A model generated the notes under the pieces. The model was given only the letters and a program-made list of their open reading frames with translations, ran no database searches and was not told the DNA's origin. Both the position numbers and the translations under genes were made by a program. From a virus, in the IMG/VR virus record IMGVR_UViG_3300021432_000009, positions 1 through 62,045 of that record: a stretch of DNA of 62,045 bases. One strand, written 5' to 3'. Position 1 is the stretch's first letter; every line of letters starts with the position of its first letter. Positions 9,240 to 50,305 of this stretch are shown here, piece by piece.

Positions 9240-9306
9240 CTTTAAGGATCATTGGGACGACATAGCAGGCTACGCGAAGCTGGTATCCGACCGATGCACG
9301 TCGTAG
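9034..9306 (+). CDS. DUF6378-like phage protein (90 aa)
   Basis: The core RGTTHGDFTVNARISQRLK, then AYQQEAIHMILHKISR and FKDHWDDIAGYAKLVSDR is the signature of a widespread phage family known as DUF6378, function unknown. I place the start at the ATG at 9034; 9004 is also possible. Its 5' 206 bases overlap the ribbon-helix-helix ORF in another frame, and its 3' end overlaps the next gene. Confidence 0.8.
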   Translation: MPSASSSTSELLAQRGTTHGDFTVNARISQRLKAVIQEEPNWPKLAAYQQEAIHMILHKISRAVAGNADFKDHWDDIAGYAKLVSDRCTS

Positions 9307-10391
9307 CGCCTCCATTCGCCCATTCGTCCGGCCCACGTACTGCGAAGCTCGCCTTCGTCGCAGAGTGTTGGGGCGAGCAAGAAGACATGGCTGGGCGCCC
9401 GCTTGTCGGCAACGCGGGCCAGGAGTTCACGCGGTTGCTGTGCGAAGCGGGGATAGACCGCAGAGAGTGCTTTCTAACTAACACCATCGCCGCAAGGCCG
9501 CCAGATAACAAGTTCGAAGCACACTTCTGTTGCAAGAAGGGCGAGCTTCCGCCCAACTACGCCCTCCCGCCACTGTCGCAGGGCAACTATCTGAAGCCGG
9601 AGTACTGCGGGGAGCTAGATCGCCTATGCGAAGAACTATGCACGGTTCGGCCAAACCTCGTCGTAGCCCTCGGCGCAAAGGCCCTATGGGCGCTAAGCGG
9701 CAGCAGTGCCACAGGAGCTATGCGGGGAACAGTAGCTACTTCACGATTCGTATTGCACCAGGGCAATGGCTCGCACAGTCTAGCTACACAGAAGATACTA
9801 GCGACGTATCATCCTAGCTATCTATTCAAAGTATGGTCACATAGGCCAATCGTCCTAGCCGACTTGATGAAAGCGAAACGCGAAGCCGCCTTCCCCGAGG
9901 TCCGCCGCCCCGAACGCACCGTGCTAGTCCGCCCGACGATCGGCGAGATCGAAGAGTTCTACGAGTTTAACCTACGAGATGCCGCCTGCATCGCCGTGGA
10001 TATTGAGACGAAGGCGGGGCAGATCAGCGATATTGGCTTCGCTCCCTCGCGCCGTAAGGCAATGGTAGTGACCTTTCTCGATCCGAAGAAGGCTGACGCG
10101 AGCTATTGGGAGTCGCCAGTACTTGAAGTCGCCGCGTGGAAGTGGGTGCAGAGGATACTCGCCTTGCCTTGCAAGAAGCTATTCCAGAACGGCGTCTTCG
10201 ATATCTCGTACTTGATGAAACAGGGACTGAGAGTAGTGAACTGCGCAGACGACACGATGCTACTTCACCACAGCTACTATCCTGAGCTGCAGAAAAGCCT
10301 TGCGTTCCTCGGGTCCATCTATACGAGCGAGCCGGCGTGGAAGCTTATGGTTAGGCACAAGAAAGAAGAGTTGTTGAAGAAAGATGAGTAG
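9294..10391 (+). CDS. Uracil-DNA glycosylase-like domain fused to part of a 3'-5' exonuclease (365 aa)
   Basis: The start at 9294 overlaps the upstream stop; the open frame goes back to 9252. Residues 1-195 match family 4-type uracil-DNA glycosylases: ECWGEQEDMAGRPLVGNAG near the N-terminus and ATYHPSYLFKVW near residue 165-180. Residues 210-360 are a DnaQ-like exonuclease: Exo I AVDIETK, Exo II FQNGVFDISYL, then DDTMLLHHSYYPELQKSLAF. The Exo III motif is absent here and appears at the N-terminus of the polymerase gene at 10987. The domain is therefore split between two genes. Confidence 0.8.
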   Translation: MHVVAPPFAHSSGPRTAKLAFVAECWGEQEDMAGRPLVGNAGQEFTRLLCEAGIDRRECFLTNTIAARPPDNKFEAHFCCKKGELPPNYALPPLSQGNYLKPEYCGELDRLCEELCTVRPNLVVALGAKALWALSGSSATGAMRGTVATSRFVLHQGNGSHSLATQKILATYHPSYLFKVWSHRPIVLADLMKAKREAAFPEVRRPERTVLVRPTIGEIEEFYEFNLRDAACIAVDIETKAGQISDIGFAPSRRKAMVVTFLDPKKADASYWESPVLEVAAWKWVQRILALPCKKLFQNGVFDISYLMKQGLRVVNCADDTMLLHHSYYPELQKSLAFLGSIYTSEPAWKLMVRHKKEELLKKDE

Positions 10392-10607: not shown

Positions 10608-10993
10608 GCACTGAAGGCTGCCCCGCCGAATACGTATACCTCGCGTCGCCGTACTCGCACCACGACGCCGCGGTGCGTGCGCTTCGTTTCCTCGAAGCTG
10701 AGCGCTGTTCGCACTGGCTTCTTCTCCGTAGGAACTGGAATTACTCTCCGATTGTCTACTGCCACTTGATGGCCCAGAAGTTCGGCCTTCCGACTGACTT
10801 CGCCTATTGGCAGGACTTAAATCGCGCCATGCTAGTCTACAGTCGCGCGATGTACATACTGACGATTGATGGCTGGCGCAACAGCACGGGGATCGCCGGA
10901 GAGCGCGAGTTCGCGGAGGGCGAGGGGATACTAGTAAGGTATATCGAACCGTATCTCGACGCATATCAGATACTGGCGAAGCCGCCATGCTAG
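10604..10993 (+). CDS. DUF1937-like protein, nucleoside deoxyribosyltransferase fold (129 aa)
   Basis: The pattern VYLASPYSHHD at the N-terminus, NYSPIVYCHLMA, DFAYWQDLNRAM and ILTIDGWRNSTGIAGER is that of DUF1937, related to nucleoside 2-deoxyribosyltransferases. It may act in nucleotide metabolism or DNA modification. It lies within the split polymerase locus and overlaps the polymerase gene by 7 bases. Confidence 0.75.
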   Translation: MSTEGCPAEYVYLASPYSHHDAAVRALRFLEAERCSHWLLLRRNWNYSPIVYCHLMAQKFGLPTDFAYWQDLNRAMLVYSRAMYILTIDGWRNSTGIAGEREFAEGEGILVRYIEPYLDAYQILAKPPC

Positions 10994-12501
10994 TTCGCAC
11001 GCAAGACCTCAAGCAAGGCGAGGTGACAGAAGATAATTTGCAAATATATAACGGACTTGATTGCTGTATCACAATGGAGGTCTTCGAGGAGCTATCGACG
11101 CTCAGTAACGCCCCACCGCCTGTCTACGCCTTCTCTCGTGCCTTGCAAGCCCCGATACTCGAAATGTCCCTGCGCGGGTTTCGAATAGACGAGTATGAGA
11201 GACAAAGTAGTCTCGCCTCGCTGCGCGAGAAGCGCACAAAACTTAACTCCGCGTTACAGTTGCTCGCATACGCGGTATGGGATAAGCCACTTAACCCCAA
11301 CGTCGGCGCGCACAAGCAGCAACAGGAGTTCTTCTACCGCCACATGCGGGTACCAGAAATTTGGTCCTCTCAAAAGGGCGAACGCAAGCTTCGCATGAAC
11401 CGAGAAACGCTAGAGAAGATTGAGGTATATCTGTATGCCAGACCAATCGTTGCGTGTATCTTGGCAATTCGTGATCTCAACAAATCAATTGAATTCTTCG
11501 AAACTGAACTGGATTCTGATGGACGGTTCCGAACGAGTTACAATATCGGGGGAACTGAATCATGGCGGCTTTCATCCAGCAAATCCGCCACGGGAACTGG
11601 AGGCAATGCTCAAAATCTTAAACGAGATGATGATATTGCCAAAGGAGAGCTTAGTGTTAGGAAACCCTTCGTCGCCGACCAAGGAATGAAGCTATGCGTC
11701 TTAGATCTCGAACAGGCTGAGTCGAGGGAGGTTGGGCTGATCTTCGGAACACTTTTCAACGACTGGAGATTCCTCGACGCTTGTGAGCAAGGCGATTTAC
11801 ACACCACTACCGCGAGGCTAATATGGCCAGAGCTTGTCCACGACCGCAAATCTGCCGAGGCTCACTTCTATCGTCACTTTACATATCGCGACATGTCCAA
11901 GCGTGGCGGCCATCTCACAAGCTACATGGGCACTGCGTGGACTGCGGCGCGCAGTTTGAAGGTTCCATTGAAGCTAATGGAGATATTTCAATCAGCTTTT
12001 GCGACAGGACCAAAAGCTGCGTTTCCGAGTTTCCCAAGGTGGTGGCGATGGGTAGCACAGGAGTTGCAGACCAAGCATCAGATCACAAATTCGTTTGGCG
12101 TTACCCGGACGTTTTTTGGTCGTCCTAACGACGACACAACGCTTCGCGAAGCAATTGCGCACTCGCCTCAGAGCAGCACGGCAATGCGTACGAACCTCGC
12201 GCTGTGGCGCATTTGGCGATATCTCCCACACGTCCAATTGCTCGCACAGACACATGACAGCGTGACGTTTCAGTTTCGCGACCGCGATGACAATTACACA
12301 AAGGAAGTGCTGCGAGACGCTAGGGCGCTCATGAGCACGCCCTTGCACCTGCCAAATGGCCGCATCTTCGACGTTCCAAGCGACTGCAAAATCGGCTGGA
12401 ACTGGGGAGCCTACGATGCGAAGTACAACCCGAATGGATTGCGCAAGTGGAAGGGCAGCGACGAGCGGAAGAGGCTAGATGGAGTGGATCGCATACTATG
12501 A
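10987..12501 (+). CDS. Family A DNA polymerase, polymerase part with Exo III motif (504 aa)
   Basis: The N-terminus carries IYNGLDCCITMEVFEEL, the Exo III motif of the exonuclease that begins in 9294..10391. Motif A is CVLDLEQAESR (near residue 238), motif B is RDMSKRGGHLTSYMG (near 300) and motif C is QTHDSVTFQF (near 420), where the usual HDE is HDS but the aspartate is kept. It should be the replicative polymerase. Start codon support is weak (GGCGAAG only), so the junction may rely on coupling to the DUF1937 gene. Confidence 0.85.
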   Translation: MLVRTQDLKQGEVTEDNLQIYNGLDCCITMEVFEELSTLSNAPPPVYAFSRALQAPILEMSLRGFRIDEYERQSSLASLREKRTKLNSALQLLAYAVWDKPLNPNVGAHKQQQEFFYRHMRVPEIWSSQKGERKLRMNRETLEKIEVYLYARPIVACILAIRDLNKSIEFFETELDSDGRFRTSYNIGGTESWRLSSSKSATGTGGNAQNLKRDDDIAKGELSVRKPFVADQGMKLCVLDLEQAESREVGLIFGTLFNDWRFLDACEQGDLHTTTARLIWPELVHDRKSAEAHFYRHFTYRDMSKRGGHLTSYMGTAWTAARSLKVPLKLMEIFQSAFATGPKAAFPSFPRWWRWVAQELQTKHQITNSFGVTRTFFGRPNDDTTLREAIAHSPQSSTAMRTNLALWRIWRYLPHVQLLAQTHDSVTFQFRDRDDNYTKEVLRDARALMSTPLHLPNGRIFDVPSDCKIGWNWGAYDAKYNPNGLRKWKGSDERKRLDGVDRIL

Positions 12502-18421: not shown

Positions 18422-20280
18422 CGCGTATTCGCCTCCCCACGCTTGTTCTCCAAATTCGCCCCGAGCACGGTTAGCGGGTTAACTCCACCAAGCCACGGGC
18501 GAGCCTTGCCCTGCGCAATGTCTAGCAAGTGTTGAGTGTAGAGTGGACTGCCAGTAACCTTCCCCGCAATCTTCCCTGTGCCAAGCGCAGTCGCACCGAG
18601 ACTCGCCGCAGCGAGCGTAGATAACCCAGGATTACTCAGCGCAGTACTTCCCAACTCATGTGCCATCGGAACGTGTTCTAGCAGATGTTCGCCTACGAGC
18701 GTTCCTGCCGTGCCGACTGCGCCGCCGAGCGTCCCTGTCGTATACGGATGCGCGCCGGCAGTCGCAAGAATGCTATTCGACTTCGCCGGGCTCGCTTCTG
18801 GCTTGTAGATAAACTGCCCAGCCGTGCCGAGGTCTCCAAGCGCTCCAGCGTTCGCCGTGCTACCATATCGCTTGCGAATGGCCGCTTCAAGCTTCTGTGG
18901 ATTGTAGTTAGCTGAGTCGCTCGCCCCTGGCTCAATCATCTTCGCAATCTTATAGCCTTGCTTCGCGTTACCGAAGTCAGCATAGTCTTGCGGATTGTCT
19001 CCCTTCGCAATAGTATCATGCCAAGCGTTATCTAGTATCTCGCGCATCCCGACGAGTGGCAAGTTTGGATCATCTGCACTGCCGCTTACGTAGGGGCGCA
19101 GCCCAGGGTTCTTCGCAGCAGTCTCCAGCAAACCACCCTTCCCGGTCCACCTCTGGTAAATGCTCCCCGCTAGCGGCCCATTTGCGAGATTTTGCTGCAC
19201 GGGATCGTAAAGGGCAGAGTGGAACTTCGCATAGTCCTCATTCGACAGACCCAGCTTCGCTTGCTGATCTAGCGCAGCTAGCCCTGCGTTAAGCTTGCCT
19301 CCAATGGCGGGATCGCTAGCATCGACTGAGTACTTTGCCGCAATCCTTCCCATTGTGCTGCCGTTGAGCGACTTCGCCCTTTCCACCCAACTAGAGTTAA
19401 TCTTATCCTCTGGCAAGTTCGCCCACGAGGAGAGCGCTCGGTCGAAGCCGCGCTGCACTGTCGGGTTATTGTTCATGTTGGTTAGTTGGTCGAGCGTAAC
19501 AACTGGTTTTGCCGCGCCTGGCACCATACCTGCGCGAATAGGCACGCCCTGTCGAATAGCACTGCTAACTGCTCGCGCAACGTCTGGGTCAATGTGCGAG
19601 CCCAAGCCAAGTAGACTACTAGCTGGTCCTATGAGCCCCCCGGCGAGCGCACCTTCACCAGCTTGCGAAATAATGCTGCCCTGCCCCTGGTCGCTTTGCA
19701 GTGCTCCAGCTACGCCGCCTTCGACCGCACCGCGAGTCGCCTGCGATGCTACACGTAACCCAGCATTACTAAGTCCTCTTACTCCAACCCCACCAAAGCC
19801 ACCTGCGCTACCACCCAGGAAGTTCAACGCTGGTACGATACGCGGCGCTGCCATAGCTAATCGCTCCGCTATCGGAGCGATGGCATAGTCCTGCCCTAGC
19901 GCCATCGCACCTGTCGCGCCAACCACGCCACCACCAATTTCTGACAAAAGCGCCCCAGTCGGACTACTCGCCTCGTATTGCTTCTGCAGAGCATTAAGTC
20001 TTGCGAGCCGCGTCGAGTAGTCGCTCATCACCCCCGTCCTTGCCTCTTCCGGCGTAGGGGAGAATGCAAGTCCGCGCTTACCAAGCCCAAATGTTAGCGC
20101 ATCAGCAAAATTGCTACCAAAACCCCACTGACTTGGCGTAGTGCCTCGTGGAGCGTAGGTAACTTGTGGAGTAGAGGAAAACGCACTATTGACTAGCTCT
20201 TCGTCGCTCATAGGCGGCGGCAGTGGAGCAGCTGTTGACTGCGTGCCAAAGGCTGCATCAATTAAGTCTTTATCGTTCAC
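18418..20280 (-). CDS. Probable ejection (DNA-injection) protein, large (620 aa)
   Basis: Large protein with several long glycine/alanine-rich, weakly hydrophobic segments (for example around residues 110-135, 150-175 and 545-585), typical of internal virion proteins that enter the host membrane during DNA ejection. Third of three consecutive genes (with 20277 and 21843) in the position of the P22 gp7-gp20-gp16 set. Assignment is by position and composition, not by motif. Confidence 0.55.
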   Translation of the reverse strand: MNDKDLIDAAFGTQSTAAPLPPPMSDEELVNSAFSSTPQVTYAPRGTTPSQWGFGSNFADALTFGLGKRGLAFSPTPEEARTGVMSDYSTRLARLNALQKQYEASSPTGALLSEIGGGVVGATGAMALGQDYAIAPIAERLAMAAPRIVPALNFLGGSAGGFGGVGVRGLSNAGLRVASQATRGAVEGGVAGALQSDQGQGSIISQAGEGALAGGLIGPASSLLGLGSHIDPDVARAVSSAIRQGVPIRAGMVPGAAKPVVTLDQLTNMNNNPTVQRGFDRALSSWANLPEDKINSSWVERAKSLNGSTMGRIAAKYSVDASDPAIGGKLNAGLAALDQQAKLGLSNEDYAKFHSALYDPVQQNLANGPLAGSIYQRWTGKGGLLETAAKNPGLRPYVSGSADDPNLPLVGMREILDNAWHDTIAKGDNPQDYADFGNAKQGYKIAKMIEPGASDSANYNPQKLEAAIRKRYGSTANAGALGDLGTAGQFIYKPEASPAKSNSILATAGAHPYTTGTLGGAVGTAGTLVGEHLLEHVPMAHELGSTALSNPGLSTLAAASLGATALGTGKIAGKVTGSPLYTQHLLDIAQGKARPWLGGVNPLTVLGANLENKRGEANTR

Positions 20281-21833
20281 GGAGCGCCTCCAGCAGGCGG
20301 CTCTGCCGAGCCAGTACTTAGCACCTTCGCGGTCTCTTTACTAACGAGTGGCCTCTTCGCAATCTCCTTGTTAAACCACGGTTCGAAGTCGACAAGTCGT
20401 TTCAAGCCTGGGAGTAGTTCTTTACCTTGATACTCCGGATCGCTTGCTCGTCGCGCAGCCTCAGTAACTAGCTGGCTGCGCGCAAGATTAATTGAGTTCT
20501 GATTTCGCATGAACGTGAACATCTTGTCGATGCCGCGCGGATCAGTATCCCAATTAGCGTTATTCTTGTTAAACGTCTGATACTCGATAAGTGGAATGCG
20601 TCCAACACCGGGCTTGTTCACCGACGCCATTAGTATGCTTGCAGCAAGTTGTGGTTGCAGTTTCGCATACACCGAAGCATCGCCAAGGTTACCCTGTGCA
20701 ACCTTGTCTACAATAGGAGTGCTAAAGCCTAATCCCTGAGCGAGCTTTGCTGCCGCAATAAATGTATCCATGCCACCGCCAGTCTTGAAGCCTGACCGAG
20801 CCTTGTCTAGCTCATCCATAATGCGATTCAAGTTAGTCGAATCCGTTGCCGACTGATTCGCACTTGCGATGTACTTCGGCATCGCAGCAAGCTGTCCTGT
20901 AGTAACTGGACCGAGCGAGGTTGTAGCTTGCGGGCCAGCAGGCCCACCAGTATACGGAGCGCGGCTTGTTGCAGCCCCACTACCTAGTATTGATTCTCTT
21001 GGCGCTCCTACCATGCCACCCACAGGCGGAAGCGGTTGGCCAACTAGAGATTGTGTGGTTTTGCCAGACTGATCAATTGTAGTCGTGCCCGGCCCAGATG
21101 TCTGCGGCACAATTCCACCCGGCTGCAAGCCCGGCCCGCTCATAGGCGTACGCGTTCCAGTTAGCGCATTCTCCACGCCCACCTGCGCACCACCGCCGAA
21201 GTTCTGATTATACGTCTTAGTCGTGCGATCTAGCGTCTGCGCAGCGGTTTCCTGAGCAATTTGGAACTTGCTTAGTTGCTGGTGCGCCAGCTTCGGATCA
21301 TACGGTGCGTCCAACTGCGGCGTGCCGTCCTTCGCCGTTGGCTTGCCAATCGTCGTCGCCCAACTAATCGCCGCTCCTGGCTCGCCTCCGGCATCTAGGT
21401 GCAATGCGTGCACGAGCGCAGCTACGCCCATCACCTCGTTCTGCGGAATCGCCCCGTCAGGATGCTTCGCCACAGCTGCGCCTGCGTAGCGGCCCAGCGC
21501 ATCCGCGCGGCTCTGCGCATTCGCAAGGGACTTCCCAACTGTCTCCTGCTGTGTCAACTGCCTTTGAACCATCCCATTGATGATATCTGGCGCCATGAAC
21601 GCTGTGTCTGGATGCGCGCTCAGCAAGACTGCAAACTTATTGTAGTCCATCTGCCCATCCGGCCCGATGCTTTGCTGTGCGAGTGGCCCCATCGCCTGGC
21701 GGGCACGAAATGTTTGCTGGAAGAGCGCGTTTGTGTTGAGCGCATTCTGCGTCGTCGCGAATTGCGACGCCATGCCGAGCAGATTACTCGGCTGCGGCTG
21801 CGTCGGGTAGAACGACGTGTCGATCTGAGCCAT
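20277..21833 (-). CDS. Probable ejection/internal virion protein (518 aa)
   Basis: Glutamine/alanine-rich protein with a proline/glycine-rich middle (residues 210-300) between two helical parts; the C-terminal part (from about 320) looks ordered. Its place between the gp7-like protein and 18418..20280 suggests an internal virion role. ATGA overlap with 18418..20280. Confidence 0.55.
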   Translation of the reverse strand: MAQIDTSFYPTQPQPSNLLGMASQFATTQNALNTNALFQQTFRARQAMGPLAQQSIGPDGQMDYNKFAVLLSAHPDTAFMAPDIINGMVQRQLTQQETVGKSLANAQSRADALGRYAGAAVAKHPDGAIPQNEVMGVAALVHALHLDAGGEPGAAISWATTIGKPTAKDGTPQLDAPYDPKLAHQQLSKFQIAQETAAQTLDRTTKTYNQNFGGGAQVGVENALTGTRTPMSGPGLQPGGIVPQTSGPGTTTIDQSGKTTQSLVGQPLPPVGGMVGAPRESILGSGAATSRAPYTGGPAGPQATTSLGPVTTGQLAAMPKYIASANQSATDSTNLNRIMDELDKARSGFKTGGGMDTFIAAAKLAQGLGFSTPIVDKVAQGNLGDASVYAKLQPQLAASILMASVNKPGVGRIPLIEYQTFNKNNANWDTDPRGIDKMFTFMRNQNSINLARSQLVTEAARRASDPEYQGKELLPGLKRLVDFEPWFNKEIAKRPLVSKETAKVLSTGSAEPPAGGAP

Positions 21834-34448: not shown

Positions 34449-35681
34449 CTAGAGGAAGTCAGGCACAACGCAGGCCCATTCGGGCCGAACGTATAGGATT
34501 CCCCAAAGCACGTCAAGTCGAGTGATGAATTGGTCGCTGCGAATGTCGTATGCGCTAATCATTCGCATCGAGATGCCATCATACGACTCCCTCGCCGCTT
34601 CGTGCACGCCACGCGGCAGCTCCAGGTCCGCCGTTGCCATCGTGATGGCCTCGGGCACGAACGCGAAGTTCTTCCGATACACGGAACTCGCCAGCGTTGC
34701 AGGGATGACATTCGCCGCATTCGCCGGCGAGTTGTCCACCGTCTGGTACTGCACCGGAGTCGGCCCAGCAGCCGCAGGGATCAGCGCAGGGTAGATGTTC
34801 ATCGTCGTGCCGCCATTCGCAACGGCAGTCGTCAAGACGAACTGCATCGGAGTCTGCGTGGAGACCTTCGTGATACGGTTCACGGAGTTGACGCCGCTGA
34901 TCGTCACGATATCGCCGAGAGCGTAGGTGCCCGCCAGCGCATTAATGGTGATCTGCAACCCCGTTTGGCCAGCGCCATTCACAGTGGCAGACGTGGCCTG
35001 CGCGCTCGTATACGCACCCGTCGTATGCTTGATAACCGTTTGGTCCGAGTACCAGTCGAACCCGAGCGTATCCTCGGCGATCTGACCCTTCTTGTACTGG
35101 TCGCCGATCTTGTTCTGCGGGTTCAGTAGGCCGGCGAGGCTCGCGACGCTTCGCGCCATCGTAATGGGGTCAAGGATCAGTTTCCGGCGACCCCTTGGCG
35201 CAGAGTTAAGGTCGAGCAGCGCGCCGGCGGTGAGCCAAGTCTGCGCAATGGGCGTGAGCACGTTGCCTGCGCCATCGAAGTTGCCGGCAAGTCGGGCTAC
35301 GCCGCCCTCGACGCCGGCCATGATATTCGCGGCTACGTCGCCGCACAGGTTATTGACCATCGGGGCGAGGATACGGCGGGAGAAGTCGTCGAGCAACATG
35401 GTACGGTCGACACTGCTGTACGACACGTCCACGCCATATTGGTTGGTGAGCGTCAGCGTGGTGCTCTGCTCGCTCGTGTCCTGAATGCTCGCCGCCGGTC
35501 CGTGCCGAGTCGTGAAGTCGTTCGGCAAGCGCACCCTTACCGTCGTGCCGATCTTCGCGCCCGTCTTCGCGAACTGATCGTCGTATTGCTGGTCGATGTG
35601 CTGAATGAACTCGTTGGAGTTCTTCCAAAGCCGCACGGCCTCGCGGGTAATCATGTTGATTGTCAGGATGGTATTCGGCAT
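34449..35681 (-). CDS. Major capsid protein, P22 coat-like (410 aa)
   Basis: The N-terminus ILTINMITREAVRLWKNS with FIQHIDQQYDDQF and VRVRLPNDFTTR fits the P22 coat family (HK97 fold); an inserted beta-rich domain lies around residues 225-310; the C-terminus carries DGISMRMISAYDI and VLWGILYVRPEW. It follows the scaffold gene. The Shine-Dalgarno AGGGAG is 20 bases from the ATG, with a hairpin between them (see 35689-35707). Fragments related to residues 5-59, 94-123 and 368-402 recur in Tat-signal proteins at 49.5-50.3 kb. Confidence 0.85.
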   Translation of the reverse strand: MPNTILTINMITREAVRLWKNSNEFIQHIDQQYDDQFAKTGAKIGTTVRVRLPNDFTTRHGPAASIQDTSEQSTTLTLTNQYGVDVSYSSVDRTMLLDDFSRRILAPMVNNLCGDVAANIMAGVEGGVARLAGNFDGAGNVLTPIAQTWLTAGALLDLNSAPRGRRKLILDPITMARSVASLAGLLNPQNKIGDQYKKGQIAEDTLGFDWYSDQTVIKHTTGAYTSAQATSATVNGAGQTGLQITINALAGTYALGDIVTISGVNSVNRITKVSTQTPMQFVLTTAVANGGTTMNIYPALIPAAAGPTPVQYQTVDNSPANAANVIPATLASSVYRKNFAFVPEAITMATADLELPRGVHEAARESYDGISMRMISAYDIRSDQFITRLDVLWGILYVRPEWACVVPDFL

Positions 35682-35833: not shown

Positions 35834-36733
35834 TTAGTGCCTCGTAGCGCGCTGGGCGCGCTCCTGTTCGTTCCGCTTCGCGATAAACTCTGTCATCGGC
35901 ATAGTCTCAAGATCTGGCTCTGCTCGAGTCGCGCCACCCACTCGGGGCGCGATCGGCTTCGGCGCGCGCGTTACCCTCGGCTCAGCCTCGCCCAGCGCAT
36001 TCTGCTGCGCACCCAGCTCGCTCGCAAGCTTCGTTAGCGCAACAGCCTGCGCGACAGCGGGCATCGAGAGTATTCGATCGGCCTCACTCGGGTTCTTGCC
36101 CAGGTGATAGATGAGCGCGCCGGCGGAGCCAGTCTCCAGCGCCGCGGCGAGAAACTCGCCCGGCACAACTGGGCCGGTTACAGTCTTCAGGCCTGCGATG
36201 GCCTCGTCGAAGTCGGGGTGTTCCTTGCGACCCGCGAAGACTACTTCGTCCATTCTCGTATTGAACTGCGCATTCGCAGCGAGCCGGCGGGCCTCGGCCT
36301 CCACCTCCGCTTGCGTGAATGTTCGTACAGCCGGCTTTGGTGGCTCAGGCTTCGCTTCGCCCTCTGCTGGCTTCGCTACGCCCAGCTTCTGTAACTCCGC
36401 AATGGTGTCCTCTGCGAGCTTCGCTCGCGCTTCCGCCGCTTCGCGCGCTCGCTTCTCTTCCCACTTCTCGCGAGTGAGCACGTTGATGCGCTCAGCGGCG
36501 CCATCCTTCTTCGGCTCGGGCTTTGGCTCGCCCGCGGGCGGCTCGCCATCCTTCGGCGCGAGCAGCGCCGCAACAGGCTTGAGTGGTTCCGCTGGCTGCT
36601 CTGGCTGCGGTGTTGGTGTCGGGCCGGGCTCGGGTGTCGGCGTAGCAACGCCGCCGGGGCCAAGAGAAGCCTCGTCGCCCTCAGCAGAGCACAGGAAGGT
36701 GTGGTCGAGAAAGTGGCGATGGCGGAAGAGCAT
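35834..36733 (-). CDS. Head scaffolding protein (299 aa)
   Basis: Proline/glutamate-rich N-terminus, a charged coiled coil (residues 80-120; REKWEEKRAREAAEARAKL), a second helical domain (YHLGKNPSEADRILSMPAVA) and a basic C-terminus ending AKRNEQERAQRATRH, the part expected to touch the coat. The position between portal region and coat matches P22 gp8. No protease domain is seen. Confidence 0.7.
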   Translation of the reverse strand: MLFRHRHFLDHTFLCSAEGDEASLGPGGVATPTPEPGPTPTPQPEQPAEPLKPVAALLAPKDGEPPAGEPKPEPKKDGAAERINVLTREKWEEKRAREAAEARAKLAEDTIAELQKLGVAKPAEGEAKPEPPKPAVRTFTQAEVEAEARRLAANAQFNTRMDEVVFAGRKEHPDFDEAIAGLKTVTGPVVPGEFLAAALETGSAGALIYHLGKNPSEADRILSMPAVAQAVALTKLASELGAQQNALGEAEPRVTRAPKPIAPRVGGATRAEPDLETMPMTEFIAKRNEQERAQRATRH

Positions 36734-37104
36734 TACTGTAACCTCAGTTGGCGGCGTTCGGCTCGTCTGGCATGGCGATTGCGGCCTACCACGAGGCCGT
36801 TGTCGTCAATGAGCGCAGCATAAATGGTTTGCTTCAATTCCTCCGAATGGTTGCCGCCCAACATTTGCGCTAACGTGGCCCGCGCCTTCGGAATGAGCTT
36901 CGGCCACATTAGTTCCAGGAACATCGCTTCGCACATAGTCGGCGTCAGCTCGGGGCACACTCGCTTCCACTCAGCATATATGCGATTATCTCGCATCACG
37001 TCGGAGTAGAGCGACGCGGCCATCTCAATTGCCGTAGCACGTATCAGCTTGTGAACATGCACGGTGCGGTGTGGCGGGAGCGCCGCCTTCGGCAGATCGT
37101 TCAT
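36733..37104 (-). CDS. Unknown head-region protein (123 aa)
   Basis: Helical protein (MRDNRIYAEWKRVCPELTP; TLAQMLGGNHSEELKQTIY). Overlaps both neighbours by ATGA or one base. Conserved-looking but of unknown function. Confidence 0.6.
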   Translation of the reverse strand: MNDLPKAALPPHRTVHVHKLIRATAIEMAASLYSDVMRDNRIYAEWKRVCPELTPTMCEAMFLELMWPKLIPKARATLAQMLGGNHSEELKQTIYAALIDDNGLVVGRNRHARRAERRQLRLQ

Positions 37105-38708
37105 TGCGAGACCTCGTCAGGAAACGGGTTGTGCTCTACGTCTTGCACTGGGCGAAGCGAGCCATCGTGGCTCGCGGCATACGCCGCCGTTGCGCCAGCG
37201 AGCGGAATGCCAGCCTTGATATTCGCACTTGTGAACTTCGAAGGGTCGAAATCTGCCCACGGTAACCTCGCGCCGTAGACGTGGCCTGGCGAGGTGGGCG
37301 ACTCGCGAAACAGTATATAGGAGTCGTGGCCTTTGTCCTCAACCCTATTCTTGTAAACTATGCTGTCATAGCCCTTAGACTGCATATAGTTTCGCAAGTT
37401 ATTTGCTTGAGTCTTCAAACTGCTAATTCCATAAATATCCTTCATACTGGCTGTGGCCATACCAGCGTATCTTGCCTCGTCGATCTCGTCTCTCGGCAAT
37501 CCTGCCATCTCTAGTCCCTTTGCTACATTCTCTGGATACCATGTTCCCAAGTCAGGCATCCGAATTGGGTTTTGCGCAACAATTGCAGCGGGGTAGACCC
37601 GCGGAGCAGTAGACCAGTCGAGCGTACTACCTTGTATCTCCTGTGCTGCGCGAGGCGAGCCAAAATGAACGCCAATCTCACCGTCGCCCGGCAACGCAAA
37701 CTGGTCGAATATTGTCGGTGTCCTCGTCCCGTGGTGCACTGCGACGTTGTAGCCTTGCTCCTTTGCCGCCTGTGGCATTTGCCACGTCGCCCCACGCGGC
37801 AGCGCCTCGGTGTCAATCGGAATGTGCGCAGGAGGAGCAGACGGGTTCTTCACTCCTGCAAGATCGAATAGCGACATACCGGGGTTCGCGGCAAGGGCCT
37901 TGTCGATGTCCTCGTCAGCGAGACTTGGCTTCGCAGCGCCTTTGTTATAAAAACTTCCACCTTTCGCATAATTCTCTGCTGCTATCTGAGATTTATTAAC
38001 AAGAGTCGGGTCGAGATGACCCTTAACTTCATTAGCTACAATGTCAGGCAATACCATTGCATCGTTATTTAGATACTTTGCACTTCCACCATATCCCAAT
38101 ACATTTCCAATAGACGTAGTTGGCCAGTCGCTAATATGCTTAGCAAGCTGCGCAGTTGTGTAATTTTTCGACCACGGATTAACTGCAGCGAACTCTGGTG
38201 CAAGATGCTGCATTGTTACCTTAAGACCAATGGAAGCTGCTTGGTCTTCGAGTGAAGGCACCTTCTCCCACGCACTCCCCGCCTTCGGCATCTGTGCCGC
38301 TGCATCCCAGTCGCCGCCCAGCGCGTCCTTAATCGCATTCACAATAGTATCGCTGTGTTCCGCAGGAAGGCTCTTCGGCAGTGCTGAGCGAAACTCATTT
38401 GCAGCAAGCTCGGCTAGCTTCGGCGCTGCCTTCTTCGCCCCGCCGAGGGCAGCCATTGCAATACCTGCGCCCTTCCCTACGCCGACAGGGCCAACTAGTC
38501 CCAGTGCACTTTGCAGCGCAGGGCCAAGCGTGCTAGTTTGATCTATTGTACCAAGCGAAGCAAGACCCGTGCCAATATCCACTGCCGGCTGCACTGCCGC
38601 TCGCATAAGCGCATTCGCAGCTGGACCTTGCTGATAGCGCAGCAGCGCATCTGCTATCGCAGGGGTAATAGTTGTGGGTAGTGGTGAGGATAAGGGGTCC
38701 AGTTCCAT
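37101..38708 (-). CDS. Virion-region protein with ADP-ribosyltransferase-like domain (535 aa)
   Basis: I use the ATG at 38708; the TTG at 38717 overlaps the portal stop. Residues 1-120 are alanine-rich helical. Residues 335-500 fit ADP-ribosyltransferase-like domains of polyvalent proteins: VAVHHGTRTPTIFDQF, IGVHFGSPRAAQEI, ILYIF-type strands near IYPAAIVAQNP and the closing GYDSIVYKNRVEDKGHDSYI. The catalytic Glu could be in the RVEDKG turn. Carried next to the portal, it may be packaged and injected to modify host targets, as T4 Alt is. The middle part is AT-richer than its neighbours. Confidence 0.65.
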   Translation of the reverse strand: MELDPLSSPLPTTITPAIADALLRYQQGPAANALMRAAVQPAVDIGTGLASLGTIDQTSTLGPALQSALGLVGPVGVGKGAGIAMAALGGAKKAAPKLAELAANEFRSALPKSLPAEHSDTIVNAIKDALGGDWDAAAQMPKAGSAWEKVPSLEDQAASIGLKVTMQHLAPEFAAVNPWSKNYTTAQLAKHISDWPTTSIGNVLGYGGSAKYLNNDAMVLPDIVANEVKGHLDPTLVNKSQIAAENYAKGGSFYNKGAAKPSLADEDIDKALAANPGMSLFDLAGVKNPSAPPAHIPIDTEALPRGATWQMPQAAKEQGYNVAVHHGTRTPTIFDQFALPGDGEIGVHFGSPRAAQEIQGSTLDWSTAPRVYPAAIVAQNPIRMPDLGTWYPENVAKGLEMAGLPRDEIDEARYAGMATASMKDIYGISSLKTQANNLRNYMQSKGYDSIVYKNRVEDKGHDSYILFRESPTSPGHVYGARLPWADFDPSKFTSANIKAGIPLAGATAAYAASHDGSLRPVQDVEHNPFPDEVSQ

Positions 38709-38709
38709 G

Positions 38710-41019
38710 CTAGCCAACTAACGAGTACGCGCCTGGGGTCTTCGCATAGTTCTTCACATACCAGTGCCCATCTGCGCCCTTCCTCGCGCCCGGGACAGGC
38801 GGATTTTCAACTACTCCCTTCGGCAGCGCAATTGGGCCGCCCTGCCCATTCGCCTTCGGCGCAGCTACGCCAGTGGACTCGGCTTCGTCACTCGCTGCCT
38901 CATCGCCAAGGTGGGCCTCCAAGGACTCTTGCATCGTCTGGCTTACTAGCGCCTTAATCTCATCAGGCTGAATCGCCTCTGCTGCCCTCGCCTTGTCATC
39001 CAGGAACACCTTCAGCCGCTGCGTGAAGGCGTTGTAGGAGTCAATTACGTGCTTGCCGCTTCGATCGTGCCCCTTCAGCTTCTCCCTCGACAACTCCTCC
39101 ATTGTCTTCTGCAGCAGCTGGGTAATCTGCGTAACTTGACCCTGCAAAGCCTGTTCCTGCGGACTTGGACCTTGCCCGAGCGCTTGCGGCGGCACCATGC
39201 GGCGCAGCCTCGCCGCGGCCTCATCGCTTAGGTCGAAGTCGCTGCTCTTCAGCAGCAAGTCGCCAATTAGCGAGGTTAACTGCGGCGCTTGCGTCAGTAT
39301 GAGCGTTAGTGCATTGAATGCCTCCTCACGCTTCGTGCCCCAACTCGGCCCAATGTCTGCCTCGACCTCGTAGGTTCCAGTCATCGGGTTCAAGATATGA
39401 GCAGCAACGCTACCATCATGAGCTAGTCGCTTCGCATAGACTTGCGCGGCCTGCGGGTCGATCTCGAGCTCGAAGTCTGTGCCGTCCTCTGCCATAATGC
39501 GCATTATTCGCTTGGTGTCGTAAAGCTTCGGAATGAGATCGAGCAAAATCTTGCCTATATGTCGGATTGCAATAGCAAGATTATCAATAAAATGATAAGT
39601 AGCAGTGTCGCCTTGCCGCTGACGCTCGTTAATAGCCTTGGCAGATCGTTCATTGCTCCTCTCGCCCATAGAGTCTTGATACTGCCCAGAGGCCATCATA
39701 AAGTCGCCCTGAGCGAGTTGCATTCCAGTCAGTGCAACTGGCGCAGCCACGGGCGGCTCGACACGCTGCGGCGCTGGGATAGCCTCGCCGGCGTCATTCA
39801 GCCCATTATACGGTAGAACAGAGTGGTTTATCTTGTTCGCTGTTTCCCAATACGTCTCGTAGCCCTCAATGGCTTCGGCGGGAGCCATCCAGGGTGACTT
39901 CGTCTGTAAAGCACCATATTCTACGGCAGTACTGGCCCAATAGTTGTACATTCGCTGAGGGTCAATTAGCGCCCGAGTATGCCCCTTCCTGTCCATTATG
40001 CCATCGATGACTGTCTCTTCCCCAATAACTGGCACAATCGGAATGTACTTGCCCGGCCAAGTTTCCTCTTCCACAATAGTATTGCCGACGATGAAGTACC
40101 ACTCAATTGTAGTAGTAGTCGTTTCGCGCGACTTCGTCCGCGGGTCAGCCTCGATCATTCGCAATAGCTCAGGGGCGTCCTCCAGCACACTCTTTCGAAT
40201 ATACGCAGTTTGCTTGCTTTGCTTGTCCGTGTAGGCAAAGAGCGTATCTTTCTTCTGCACCCTTCGGAAGTACTCGCAGGTGCGAATGCTGTCCTGCGTT
40301 ACCCACCCCGCATCATCACTAACTACATTCTGCGCCGCGGCAATATCTTTGTACTCGGGGTACTTCCCCTCGAAGTCCTCCTTGGGCACATCCTCGAAGA
40401 TAAAGCAGCGATTCGCATCGCTTTTGTCTACCTCCTTTGCGCCGCTGTCCATCACAATGTTGAGAGGATCGGGGACGGGCATAATGTAGGGCTCTTGGTC
40501 GAAGGAGTCCTCACTAATATGCCGCGTGCCAATTCGCAAGTAGCCTACGCCGCCATTAACTTGGAATGTGCTCGCCACATCGTAGGCGACAGTGGCATTG
40601 CTGCGGTACTCGATATGCCGCATAATAGCGTTGTGCATCGAGGCGGCCTCGGCCGTCGCGCCATTCCCCGTCGCACGAATTTTGATTGCCGGCTTGTTCT
40701 TCTTCGCATCATTCACGATTTGCAAGTTGTGCTGGCGCGTTTTGTTAATCGTCAGACAGGGGCGCTCATCAACATCCCTGTTGCGCCTAATATCGTTCGG
40801 CCACTGGTAGCCGTTATACGCATCAGCGTTCGCAAACTTAATATCTTCTAAGAAGTTCTTCCGGGCGTGCGACTCCCACTTCGAGTCAATCTTGAAGTCG
40901 TCCTTCGCTTGCTTAAGAATGCGCTCGTGGCGAGTCCTCGCATCGCCAGCGTTGTCGTCGCTCTGCTCAACGTAGCTCTGCGCCCTTACGTCGGGAACTG
41001 TTGCGGAGTGCTCAGCCAT
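38710..41019 (-). CDS. Portal protein, P22 gp1-like (769 aa)
   Basis: The size and the sequence (ILKQAKDDFKIDSKWES; PCLTINKTRQHNLQIVND; EYRSNATVAYDVASTFQVNG; DPLNIVMDSGAKEVDKSDAN; IIDPQRMYNYWAS-type segment ALIDPQRMYNYWASTAVEYG; GERSNERSAKAINERQRQGD) fit the P22-type portal family. A dodecameric ring for DNA entry and exit. The C-terminal 120 residues are a flexible coiled-coil tail. Confidence 0.85.
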   Translation of the reverse strand: MAEHSATVPDVRAQSYVEQSDDNAGDARTRHERILKQAKDDFKIDSKWESHARKNFLEDIKFANADAYNGYQWPNDIRRNRDVDERPCLTINKTRQHNLQIVNDAKKNKPAIKIRATGNGATAEAASMHNAIMRHIEYRSNATVAYDVASTFQVNGGVGYLRIGTRHISEDSFDQEPYIMPVPDPLNIVMDSGAKEVDKSDANRCFIFEDVPKEDFEGKYPEYKDIAAAQNVVSDDAGWVTQDSIRTCEYFRRVQKKDTLFAYTDKQSKQTAYIRKSVLEDAPELLRMIEADPRTKSRETTTTTIEWYFIVGNTIVEEETWPGKYIPIVPVIGEETVIDGIMDRKGHTRALIDPQRMYNYWASTAVEYGALQTKSPWMAPAEAIEGYETYWETANKINHSVLPYNGLNDAGEAIPAPQRVEPPVAAPVALTGMQLAQGDFMMASGQYQDSMGERSNERSAKAINERQRQGDTATYHFIDNLAIAIRHIGKILLDLIPKLYDTKRIMRIMAEDGTDFELEIDPQAAQVYAKRLAHDGSVAAHILNPMTGTYEVEADIGPSWGTKREEAFNALTLILTQAPQLTSLIGDLLLKSSDFDLSDEAAARLRRMVPPQALGQGPSPQEQALQGQVTQITQLLQKTMEELSREKLKGHDRSGKHVIDSYNAFTQRLKVFLDDKARAAEAIQPDEIKALVSQTMQESLEAHLGDEAASDEAESTGVAAPKANGQGGPIALPKGVVENPPVPGARKGADGHWYVKNYAKTPGAYSLVG

Positions 41020-47184: not shown

Positions 47185-47830
47185 CCTTGGCCTCCCACTT
47201 GTCACACACGTCATCTGGCGAAATCGCCCCAGCCACCCAGGTACACGCCCGCAGCCGCGGCAGGAACATTGCGCAGTGCTCGCACGCGCGAGTCTTCCCA
47301 CTCGCCTCTCGGTAGTCCACTTCGTCCTTCTCGAACTTGCTCTTCGCGGCGACCTTCTCCAAGTGTGCGAGCAACTTCGCATCGCCCTCGTAGGGATATA
47401 GGTCGAGATCTGGCGGCACTCGACGGATATCCTCATGCTCAATTGGCATGAAGTCTGGCTCTAGGCCCTTCTCGTACTTCTCCCAGTCGTAGCCGTCGCC
47501 AAGCACTGCGAATTGCTCCGCAGCAGTAGCTAGATGATGGGCAGGCTCATAGCTCTGCTCTGCTTCATGCACTAGCGCCGCCTCGACGCTCTCGTGCACT
47601 TCGATATACTTCGCCAGCGGGACGCCTTCGCTCTTCTCCGGCAGATGGCGGTCGAGGTACACATACGCGCCGTCGCGGGAGATTCCACCCAAGTATGGCA
47701 CGTCGAATGTGTTGCAAAGCTTGCGCCACTTGCGCAGCCGCCGGCCGACGGCCGGATAGCGAATTAGTAGGGCACGTAAGCGCGCGAGCGAGCCCGGTGC
47801 GTCGTCGAATTTACTATCACCTGCGCTCAC
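47177..47830 (-). CDS. Metal-binding phage protein, protease-like fold possible (217 aa)
   Basis: YLGGISRDGAYVYLDRHLPE, YIEVHESVEAALVHEAEQSY and AHHLATAAEQFAVLG form an HExxE...H-type arrangement as in metal-dependent enzymes. The C-terminus CEHCAMFLPRLRACTWVAG, then DDVCDKW is a four-cysteine Fe-S or zinc motif widely found in phage structural regions. Possibly a virion or head-maturation factor. Confidence 0.65.
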   Translation of the reverse strand: MSAGDSKFDDAPGSLARLRALLIRYPAVGRRLRKWRKLCNTFDVPYLGGISRDGAYVYLDRHLPEKSEGVPLAKYIEVHESVEAALVHEAEQSYEPAHHLATAAEQFAVLGDGYDWEKYEKGLEPDFMPIEHEDIRRVPPDLDLYPYEGDAKLLAHLEKVAAKSKFEKDEVDYREASGKTRACEHCAMFLPRLRACTWVAGAISPDDVCDKWEAKGE

Positions 47831-48189
47831 GCGATTATCCTGCCAGGCTCAAGTCCTGCGTATTCTGGCCACGATACTACTGCGTCTATACAAGCCTGCA
47901 CACCAGGGACTGGTCGAATACTGTCAATAGTTTCTCTCGAAATAAACTTGTGAACCTGTTTAGCTGTAAGTGTAATAATACCAGATCGAGAGTCGTATTG
48001 ATGCAATGGAAACTGAGCACGGTCTACTCGAATTAACATTTGGTCAGTATTGATTTGGTATACAGCCAGATACCGCGTGTAGTATGGGTCAAAGTTGCGA
48101 ACTGGCATTAAACTACTCGTACGCACAATGGCTGGCGCAGCCAGGCTGCTAGCAAGACCAACTAGAAGACTTCTGCGAGCAATAAGCAT
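47827..48189 (-). CDS. Tat-signal protein A (120 aa)
   Basis: The N-terminus IARRSLLVGLASSLAAPAIV then RTSSLMPV is a twin-arginine leader with the cassette shared by 2850, 49497 and 49874. Residues 40-56 (AVYQINTDQMLIRVD) weakly resemble the capsid C-terminal segment AYDIRSDQFITRLD. The rest (ITLTAKQVHKFISRET) is unrecognised. The 5' leader has a hairpin and GGTTACAC like that of 50260. Overlaps the next gene by ATGA. Confidence 0.65.
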   Translation of the reverse strand: MLIARRSLLVGLASSLAAPAIVRTSSLMPVRNFDPYYTRYLAVYQINTDQMLIRVDRAQFPLHQYDSRSGIITLTAKQVHKFISRETIDSIRPVPGVQACIDAVVSWPEYAGLEPGRIIA

Positions 48190-48224
48190 CGTGTAACCTG
48201 ACTGTCCGCTTCGCGGACGACTAT
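48190..48224 (-). promoter_or_regulatory. Hairpin leader of Tat-signal protein A
   Basis: Reading leftward: TAGTC, a perfect 6-bp hairpin (GTCCGC/GCGGAC, loop 3; 48204-48218), then GGTTACAC just before the ATG at 48189. The same order of elements occurs before the Tat gene at 50260. Confidence 0.5.
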
Positions 48225-48410: not shown

Positions 48411-48644
48411 CTAGGCCGTCATATTCGGCAGTGCGATCTTCGGAGCATTTGCTCGCACGCTGTCGCGTTTCGCTCGCTCGGCGCACATGCGGTCGATCCA
48501 GGCGAGGATAGTCTCAGCATTCGTAAGTAGCAAGTCGACACCACCGTTACCGAGTGGAATACCGTGTGTACTGCATAGCTGCGGAAGTCTGCTGGCGCAC
48601 TCTAGTGCTAGCGAAACCGTGGCGCGGTCGGAGACGGCGGTCAT
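48411..48644 (-). CDS. Unknown helical protein (77 aa)
   Basis: ATGA overlap with the upstream gene. Helical, with NAETILAWIDRMCAERAKR. No family recognised. Confidence 0.6.
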   Translation of the reverse strand: MTAVSDRATVSLALECASRLPQLCSTHGIPLGNGGVDLLLTNAETILAWIDRMCAERAKRDSVRANAPKIALPNMTA

Positions 48645-48880
48645 TCGGCAGCCTCGCGAGCAGTGTTCTTCTCGTGCTCATACACGATCTTCTCATTCTC
48701 AATTCGTTTTAAGTACTCAGCATCGCTTTCAGTGTTCAAGATCATCTTCTTAACTTCGCTGCGAAATACAGCAAGTCGGTTAAGCGCCTTAATTTCCTCG
48801 TCGTATCGAGCCTGAGTCAGCTCAATCATCGTGTCACTTTGCAGATCGTAGGCCATAATAACTTTGCGCTTCGTTGTCAC
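48641..48880 (-). CDS. Unknown coiled-coil protein (79 aa)
   Basis: Charged helical protein (ARYDEEIKALNRLAVFRSEV; YLKRIENEKIVYEHEKN). ATGA overlaps on both sides. Function unknown. Confidence 0.6.
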   Translation of the reverse strand: MTTKRKVIMAYDLQSDTMIELTQARYDEEIKALNRLAVFRSEVKKMILNTESDAEYLKRIENEKIVYEHEKNTAREAAE

Positions 48881-49500
48881 TTTGGCGGCTCCAGTTGTGG
48901 GGTGGCAGTTACGTCGATCAGCGGGGCTTCGTCAGCTTGCGGCGACACGAAGCTCACGTTTACCGTAACGCCGCCGCCAGAGGTGCCCTGCTGCCCTCGT
49001 GCCGCGCCCTTGCTAGGTGCCACCGACCTGTCGAAGGCCATGGCGGCGACCTCAAGCAGTTCGCGATTCTTGAAGTCCTCGGGGGAGTCTTCTAGCCGCT
49101 CCTGTAGCACCTCGACTGCCGTGGCGCCGACTACTGCGAGGCGTCCTGTGGCGTCGAGGAACTGCGCTTGCGCCTCAGCAGCATAGTGCGCGACTAGTTC
49201 GCGGAACGCTGGGTCTTGCGTTTGCAAGCGATATATCGTCGTAATCGCGTGGCCAGTTATGCTTGCGATCTCGGCTGGCTTCTTCCCACTTGCGACGAGG
49301 CGGGCGAGCAGGTGGTGGGAGTAACGGAGACGCTGGACGGACGACTTCGCCGCGCCCACGGGGACGTTGCGCAGAATGTCGATGTCCTCCGCCGTGAGGT
49401 CGCGGACGTAGGAGAAGACGAGCGGCTCGGCGCGCTCCCGGCGGCCCTCGGAGAGGGCTAGAAGGGCGATATCGTCGAGCAATTCGACTGAGGCGGTCAT
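48877..49500 (-). CDS. Putative terminase small subunit (207 aa)
   Basis: The ATG at 49500 overlaps the Tat gene stop. A helix-turn-helix candidate (HHLLARLVASGKKPAEIASI then GHAITTIYRLQTQDP) precedes a coiled-coil oligomerisation part (RLAVVGATAVEVLQERLED) and a disordered tail. This is the layout of small terminases. It lies 6 kb upstream of the large subunit, with many genes between. Confidence 0.55.
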   Translation of the reverse strand: MTASVELLDDIALLALSEGRRERAEPLVFSYVRDLTAEDIDILRNVPVGAAKSSVQRLRYSHHLLARLVASGKKPAEIASITGHAITTIYRLQTQDPAFRELVAHYAAEAQAQFLDATGRLAVVGATAVEVLQERLEDSPEDFKNRELLEVAAMAFDRSVAPSKGAARGQQGTSGGGVTVNVSFVSPQADEAPLIDVTATPQLEPPK

Positions 49501-49877
49501 GCTGCTGCACTCGGCCACTGTTGGCCTTCGTAGTAGGCCAAGTCGAATGCTGCGTCTTGTCGTGCCATGATAGACTTCGCAACAGACTCAGCAAACTTGT
49601 CCTGCATAGGCTTAATGATACGAGCAGAGTACTCATCGAGTACTAACTCAGGTGGCAGTTCTAATGCTGTCCACTCAGGACGAACTTGCATCGAGCCAAA
49701 CAGGACGTGTAAGCGAGTAATTGACTCGTCGGCTCCAACGTCGTACACAGCAATCTTGCGAAGTGAGATGCCATCGGAGATGGCCTTGACTGGCATAAGC
49801 GACGAGGCGCGAACGATAGCCGGGGCAGCGATGAAGAGCGCTCCTAGACCAGTTATAAAGCTGCGCCGGCTAGTCAT
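49497..49877 (-). CDS. Tat-signal protein B: leader fused to re-ordered capsid segments (126 aa)
   Basis: Leader TSRRSFITGLGALFIAAPAI then VRASSLMPV. Residues 35-69 align with capsid residues 368-402 (DGIS, YD, ITRL, VRPEW shared; 21 of 35 identical by eye). Residues 78-105 align with capsid residues 95-122 (LD, S.RI, PM, VA..IMA; about 12 of 28). The order is therefore inverted relative to the capsid. The tail WPSAAA is unrelated. Overlaps 48877 by ATGA and 49874 by 4 bases. Confidence 0.75.
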   Translation of the reverse strand: MTSRRSFITGLGALFIAAPAIVRASSLMPVKAISDGISLRKIAVYDVGADESITRLHVLFGSMQVRPEWTALELPPELVLDEYSARIIKPMQDKFAESVAKSIMARQDAAFDLAYYEGQQWPSAAA

Positions 49878-50260
49878 GCGAAGCTCGCTGTCTGCCGAAT
49901 TGTGAAGTCGCCAGGAAGTCGGATTCGAATAGTACTGCCAATTTTTACACCGGCTTTATTAAACTCGTCGTCGTATTGCGAAATAAACTTGTGTGAGTTC
50001 ACAAATAGCTTAACTGCCTCGCGAGTGATCTCGTTAACTGACAGCAGGCTACCGGTAATTTGGTACGTTGCTGCTTCTTCAAACCATTCAGCCTCCGCGC
50101 CAAGCAGAGGATACATGAAAACTGGTTCTTCTTGGACTGTACTGAGCGCCTTAACTGGCATTAAGCTACTCGCACGCACGATAGCCGGGGCGGCGAACGC
50201 GAATGCGCCGAGGCCAGCGAGAAAGCCGCGGCGAGAGGGGATGAGTAGTTGGTCTGCCAT
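49874..50260 (-). CDS. Tat-signal protein C: leader fused to capsid N-terminal segment (128 aa)
   Basis: Leader PSRRGFLAGLGAFAFAAPAI then VRASSLMPVK (residues 8-37). Residues 72-122 align with capsid residues 5-59 with one 4-residue gap: ITREAV, YDD, KIG, RLP and DFT are shared, 31 of 51 identical by eye. Residues 38-70 are unique. Directly followed by Tat protein B. Exported capsid-like fragments could act in superinfection exclusion or as decoys; this is speculation. Confidence 0.75.
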   Translation of the reverse strand: MADQLLIPSRRGFLAGLGAFAFAAPAIVRASSLMPVKALSTVQEEPVFMYPLLGAEAEWFEEAATYQITGSLLSVNEITREAVKLFVNSHKFISQYDDEFNKAGVKIGSTIRIRLPGDFTIRQTASFA

Positions 50261-50265
50261 GTGGC

Positions 50266-50305
50266 GTGTTCCGTGTAACCCGACCGCCCCCCTTGGGGGC
50301 GACTA
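50266..50305 (-). promoter_or_regulatory. Hairpin leader of Tat-signal protein C
   Basis: Reading leftward: TAGTC, hairpin GCCCCC/GGGGGC (50286-50300, loop 3), then GGTTACAC, 13 bases before the ATG. The same layout as the leader at 48190-48224 although the stems differ in sequence, so structure is conserved. Confidence 0.5.

Follow-up and report, generated by a model that had tools for sequence, protein, structure and literature searches.

Why would a phage direct pieces of its own capsid protein to the cell envelope? This puzzle is raised by three small minus-strand genes, TatC, TatB and TatA, which precede the coat gene by ~14 kb in a 62,045-base IMG/VR virus record (hereafter, the window, that is, the whole stretch of DNA analysed). 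Each encodes a predicted Tat-type leader followed by sequence that resembles the coat protein. The window is not a solitary case: small genes of this kind, in which an export-type signal precedes rearranged segments of the phage's own major capsid protein (MCP), are found in many uncultured phages of soil and water. The P22-like head module of the window, on the minus strand, consists of the terminase large subunit, portal (PF16510), scaffolding protein and coat. The relevant features are the following.

34449..35681, minus strand: coat protein, P22-type, 410 amino acids (phrog_283, E 2e-61; PF11651, E 3e-31)
34467..34586, minus strand: coat C-terminal strands (residues 366-405), counterpart of the TatB and TatA segments
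35316..35399, minus strand: coat spine-helix region (residues 95-122; model helix 97-133), counterpart of the TatB segment
35505..35672, minus strand: coat N-arm region (residues 4-59), counterpart of the TatC segment (blastp)
35834..36733, minus strand: scaffolding protein, candidate binding partner (phrog_8865, E 5e-20; PF09306, E 1e-3)
47827..48189, minus strand: TatA, 120 amino acids, predicted Tat-type leader and weak coat C-terminal segment
48877..49518, minus strand: terminase-small-subunit-like gene, directly downstream of TatC/TatB (weak phrog_16503 match, E 0.014; synteny)
49497..49877, minus strand: TatB, 126 amino acids, predicted Tat-type leader followed by two coat segments, first the C-terminal and second the spine-helix one
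49563..49646, minus strand: spine-helix segment of TatB (residues 78-105), aligned with coat 95-122 (blastp, shuffles, HMM 5e-6)
49662..49775, minus strand: segment of TatB (residues 35-72) aligned with the C-terminal strands of the coat, 368-405 (blastp, shuffles)
49788..49877, minus strand: TatB leader and SSLMPV, residues 1-30 (leader HMM)
49874..50260, minus strand: TatC, 128 amino acids, predicted Tat-type leader and coat N-arm segment
49895..50050, minus strand: N-arm segment of TatC (residues 71-122), aligned with coat 4-59 (blastp, shuffles)
50153..50260, minus strand: leader of TatC with the conserved SSLMPV, residues 1-36 (leader HMM)

Leader genes and coat-like segments of the window

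The TatB start codon overlaps the TatC stop codon (ATGA). In a blastp comparison, TatC residues 71-122 align with coat residues 4-59 at 57% identity (E 8e-19), and TatB contains two coat segments in inverted order relative to the coat: residues 35-72 align with coat 368-405 (21/38, 55%; E 2e-12) and residues 78-105 with coat 95-122 (12/28, 43%; E 5e-5). When each fragment was shuffled 2,000 times, no shuffle scored as high for any of these three main segments. The matches reported in the preliminary description stand in both position and residue counts. The match of TatA (residues 32-56 to coat 366-390) is weaker, with 32% identity, an HMM E-value of 0.005, and 6 of 2,000 shuffles scoring as high. 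The segments are coat-like rather than close copies: only 32-46% of the third codon positions are identical to those of the coat gene, and the coats of related phages score nearly as high as the window's own. The structural model of the coat is usable only in part (mean confidence 51); it places a helix at residues 97-133 and strands at residues 361-398, both at low to moderate confidence. The single-sequence model of TatB has a pLDDT of 34, so nothing in it supports folding of the pieces.

The leaders of the three proteins follow the consensus RRxFxxGL...APAIVRxSSLMPV[K/R]. A single leader ending had been ascribed to the fused pieces; TatB and TatC indeed share APAIVRASSLMPVK, but TatA has APAIVRTSSLMPVR. 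An S/T-R-R-x-F-L-type Tat motif is present near the N-terminus of the leaders, and among 83 distinct leaders, RR is found in 83/83, F in 60/83, L or I in 79/83 at the respective Tat positions, and G in 73/83. By this anatomy, the leader is predicted to be a Tat-type export signal, as previously proposed. It resembles the NCBI Tat model TIGR01409 (Tat_signal_seq) in the RR motif, the hydrophobic stretch and a likely signal-peptidase site, but the best leader scores just below the cut-off of 16.7 (16.4 for L048, 13.0 for L023 and 12.7 for TatB; no score for TatA), and SSLMPV[K/R] lies outside the Tat signal. Conservation extends through S[LI]MP[VI][KR] and then falls sharply; because the search patterns contained this motif, part of its conservation is due to ascertainment.

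Used as queries against viral contigs, whole TatA and TatC retrieved no close relatives; the leader alone reaches relatives. In cultured phages, apparent TatC matches preceding the coat gene were discarded, because in these tblastn alignments the match ran through stop codons into the scaffold gene and did not reflect a shared fusion. In the 5' regions of TatA and TatC (48190-48223 and 50272-50305), a stem-loop is followed by GGTTACACG close to the start codon; the stem letters differ between the copies, both pair, and there are only these two copies in the window. A hairpin shared by all Tat genes was considered and rejected, as it was found upstream of TatA and TatC only. A fourth leader ORF (2850-3458, plus strand) has a 172-residue tail with neither a capsid match nor the SLMPV motif; a similar gene is present in a relative, record G082 (L405:10926-11444).

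Recurrence of the fusions in IMG/VR

A search of IMG/VR with an alignment of six leaders yielded 80 loci, and whole records fetched for ~70 distinct loci contained 89 leader ORFs. We compared the sequence following each leader (the tail) with all ORFs of at least 80 amino acids. At E<0.01, 21 of the 89 tails match an ORF of the record they come from, compared to 0 of 1,780 shuffled tails. Given that 181 of 3,641 ordinary short ORFs (5%) also match another ORF of their own record, the rate for the tails is ~5 times higher than the background, but the stronger point is the concentration of the matches on one protein. The targets are major head proteins (phrog_283, 334, 212, 9953 and 138), identified as MCPs either from PHROG matches or because they cluster with members so identified (the MCP of G079 has no direct PHROG match).

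With MCP HMMs built from these records, 37 of the 89 tails, spanning six MCP family models, are matched at E<0.05 (a 20-fold set of shuffles gave 4 matches, ~0.2 expected). In 27/27 tails from records that hold an MCP, the best family is that of the record itself, in agreement with the original claim of fragments derived from the phage's own capsid protein. Such an own-family match would follow from capture within the same genome alone, so that it proves origin and not function. For 13 of 24 tails, the own MCP is even the top-scoring member of the family (expected 4.7; P ~1e-4, with tails taken as independent). Several records are nearly identical (G010/G012, G017/G018, G028/G056 and the L052 group); allowing for these, the independent cases number closer to 30. 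Fusions of the same type are present in many unrelated phages, which contradicts the possibility that such proteins are found only by chance.

For 52 of the 89 tails, the source protein was not recognised with the models used. Two tails contain a tail-collar domain (PF07484; G029 and G065), and L308 and L336 appear by eye to belong to the same class. Leaders were also detected in seven bacterial genome contigs, mostly from Alphaproteobacteria; these loci (L239-L245) showed no capsid match with the MCP models used. A search of cultured phages and plasmids found no leader, a result to be read with the BLAST low-complexity filter in mind, which may mask it.

A distinct tail family, PRCxxCxxxxGMCxHTGGPL, occurs behind the leader in L050, L034, L059 and the L080 type (L054, L075, L087, L093), and these genes adjoin a terminase-like gene in several records. 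The coat genes of G100, G109 and G110 (L386, L392, L393) each contain two in-frame TAG codons in an otherwise long frame; these are possibly TAG-recoding phages.

Choice, age and turnover of the captured segments

The captured segments are far from a random sample of the MCP. The midpoints of the 33 pieces that remain after merging duplicates fall into successive deciles of the MCP length as 15, 1, 5, 5, 1, 0, 1, 0, 1 and 4, and none of 100,000 random placements was as uneven. Almost every piece derives from one of three MCP elements, namely N-arm, spine-helix region or C-terminus. In the window, the source of the segments is an HK97-fold MCP of the P22 coat type (PF11651, phrog_283), of which N-arm, spine-helix and C-terminal sequence is kept. 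Compared to such MCPs, the Tat proteins are short (80-150 amino acids), have a leader and a permuted order, and are devoid of the A domain, among other parts. The complete HK97 fold (A domain, P domain, E-loop and N-arm) is absent from the tails, which are short, and the A-domain zone holds 2 of the 33 pieces. Two-piece tails show a permuted order, C-terminus followed by spine in TatB, and spine followed by N-arm in G004, G001 and G082. The apparent spine-to-N-arm order in G079 and G002 was left uncounted because SLYxxL is also present at the MCP N-terminus.

Tails share 35-75% of residues with their own MCP, but only 23-50% of third codon positions. Third positions near saturation combined with retained amino acids imply that the copies are old and that capsid-like sequence has been under selection at the protein level. 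Columns invariant among five P22-type coats are kept in the Tat N-arms more often than variable columns (e.g. 24/35 vs 12/26). The Tat N-arm pieces are mostly as close to coats as they are to each other, or closer, suggesting that capture took place several times. The dN/dS ratio is 0.29 (0.38/1.29; G024/G044) and 0.07 (0.007/0.11 in the tail; G031/G057) in the two orthologous pairs that are most informative; the others contain too few changes. Having remained capsid-like over long evolutionary time, the pieces probably have a function.

The content of the tails changes rapidly on this background of conservation. In the window and its nearest relatives by coat identity (G125, 95%; G082, 85%), leader genes occupy one site, just upstream of the terminase-small-subunit-like gene. 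At this site, the window encodes N-arm (TatC) and C-terminus plus spine (TatB) segments, G082 spine plus N-arm, and G125 spine only, followed just downstream by a leaderless 97-residue gene containing the coat C-terminus (0/2000 shuffles). Reassortment of segments thus outpaces change in the coat. The shuffling of coat segments behind a leader that had been proposed is accordingly borne out insofar as segment sets vary at one conserved site among phages with 85-95% identical coats; the accompanying idea of a recent recombination hot spot that copies the coat gene is not, given the near-saturated third positions, the conserved amino acids and the rarity of leaderless scraps. A 79-residue ORF located between the terminase-like gene and TatA of the window (48641-48880, minus strand) includes a coat C-terminus-like stretch, VIMAYDLQSD, and corresponds in position to the clear leaderless C-terminal gene of G125; 30 of 2,000 shuffles reach its score, so that alone it is not significant.

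In a leader-blind control of 128 loci for which the MCP gene was the sole criterion of choice (1.78 Mb in total; flanks of 10 kb, which would miss the window's own Tat genes), 4 loci contain a leader ORF, two of these being copies of G036 and the other two the tail-collar-like L308 and L336. The family therefore is accessory and uncommon. Short leaderless capsid fragments in these loci are contig-edge truncations, plus a likely split gene in L308. Among the leader records, the sole convincing leaderless piece is an 89-residue coat-like gene of G022, next to two Tat-coat genes; a 68-residue N-arm ORF of G015 may come from a split MCP. With the leaderless genes of G125 and G022 (97 and 89 residues), the generalisation that capsid fragments never occur without a leader was dropped. 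In G022, three coat-derived genes are adjacent (20070-21320: leaderless I-domain-like; leader plus spine; leader plus N-arm), and no full-length coat gene was recognised in that record.

Possible functions and known parallels

Across six phage capsid family models, the pattern returns with the same structural elements and is maintained by selection. In the broadest form, phages with unrelated capsids would repeatedly build and reshuffle Tat-exported mimics of the docking elements of their own capsids, as a modular weapon or shield, a reading to which we assign not quite even chances. If true, this would be a protein-level system that uses the structural genes of the virus as raw material. Within this framework, we tentatively favour an envelope-directed decoy of the docking surface used in capsid assembly, because the preferred segments are those engaged by scaffolds and by capsid-size redirectors. 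The SPP1 scaffold binds two sites of the MCP, its N-terminal helix and the spine helix at the N-end (PMC6813328), a scaffold domain of D3 binds the end of the spine helix and the P-domain sheet (PMC12749128), and SaPI1 CpmB competes with the scaffold for the N-arm helix of 80alpha (PMC12749128). The proposed protein would comprise the Tat-type leader, SSLMPV[K/R] opening the predicted mature chain, and one or two old capsid segments. The leader would bring it as far as the inner membrane or through it, and there the capsid segment would imitate the MCP surface to which scaffolding and neighbouring subunits dock. Such a decoy could bind an assembly partner, either the scaffold or an MCP of the same type, and hold it at the envelope, disturbing head formation by co-infecting relatives or by satellites that redirect the assembly of capsids. 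Interference of this kind would be a new route of phage-phage competition.

Several observations fit the docking-surface decoy poorly. Export to the periplasm would take the protein away from the cytoplasm, where heads assemble, an objection that lapses if the protein is membrane-bound or pulls its partner along. Leader genes mostly share the strand of the MCP gene (33 vs 10 on the opposite strand), so that a poison would meet the phage's own assembly as well. The tail-collar tails (G029, G065, L308 and L336) are unsuited to mimicry of a scaffold site, most tails (52 of the 89) are of unrecognised source, and the low-confidence TatB model (pLDDT 34) gives no evidence of folded pieces.

The main rival, which we consider rather unlikely, is an anti-defence decoy, in which capsid epitopes would occupy host capsid sensors without triggering them, and segment turnover would reflect an arms race. 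MCPs are known to trigger bacterial immunity: CapRel-SJ46 binds freshly synthesised MCP (PMC11578894), and Thoeris ThsB1/B2 bind MCP with involvement of the E-loop and P-loop (PMC12578639). The fast shifts of segment content among close relatives fit this idea, which would imply capsid sensors in Alphaproteobacteria. However, the described sensors of this type are cytoplasmic whereas the leader points to the envelope, E-loop pieces are scarce, and no sensor or defence locus was linked to the genes in this analysis. Next in rank, and likewise unlikely, is a helper rather than an inhibitor, with the leader anchored in the inner membrane and the segment tethering the phage's own procapsids or scaffold. 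The placement of 33 of 43 leader genes on the MCP strand would suit such an assembly aid, as would the location of several beside a terminase, portal or MCP gene (in G010, G012 and G054, the Tat-coat gene immediately precedes that of the MCP), but Tat leaders are usually cleaved, and a needed helper would be expected at more than 4 of 128 MCP-chosen loci within 10 kb.

Superinfection exclusion, put forward in the preliminary description, appears improbable. Periplasmic exclusion proteins exist in other phages, the Tat-type leader is compatible with an exported factor that hits incoming virions in the periplasm, and the tail-collar or tail-fibre pieces of some members could block receptor-binding parts. 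Capsids of tailed phages, however, stay outside the cell, and N-arm and spine-helix pieces, buried in the shell, would have no target on the virion. Finally, a mobile leader might pick up scraps of neighbouring genes by chance, and the common leader, the great diversity of tails, including tail pieces and unrecognised ones, and the variable segment order among close relatives all have this flavour. We nevertheless regard such non-adaptive debris as very improbable: capsid genes make up a few percent of the genome, yet account for at least 37 of the 89 tails and contribute only three elements, amino acids are retained despite near-saturated third positions, and dN/dS is below 1 in both informative pairs.

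The Tat-coat fusions seem to represent an undescribed accessory phage family of a new kind. No Pfam, PHROG or NCBIfam family was found for them, and no description of such fusions was found in the open-access literature, most subscription journals lying outside this coverage. To our knowledge, leader-bearing short fragments of viral structural proteins are known, if anywhere, from animal retroviral elements. Fv1 and enJSRV Gag are restriction factors derived from endogenous retroviral Gag, that is, capsid-derived fragments that act against relatives; in contrast to the Tat proteins, these target animal viruses, carry no export leader and are not permuted, so that the parallel is functional only. 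In T4, the Gol region of the major head protein, a short capsid segment, triggers the Lit protease, but Gol lies within the capsid protein itself, whereas the Tat segments belong to separate leader-bearing genes. The redirection of capsid size by satellites may share the site addressed: SaPI1 CpmB acts on the N-arm/spine-helix docking site of a capsid protein (PMC12749128), a likeness that we infer from the segments kept in the Tat proteins. By description, CpmB differs in that it binds the capsid protein and has neither capsid-like sequence nor a leader.

Elsewhere in the window, two plus-strand ORFs (9252-10391 and 10987-12501) both match phrog_17; here, a uracil-DNA-glycosylase domain and a 3'-5' exonuclease domain follow each other in a single ORF that adjoins the family A DNA polymerase ORF. 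Another plus-strand gene (7182-8603) encodes a fusion of a ParB N-terminal domain with a DNA methyltransferase domain. In the head module, a 538-residue protein (37101-38717, minus strand) shows a weak match to an ADP-ribosyltransferase domain (ART-PolyVal, E 0.008).
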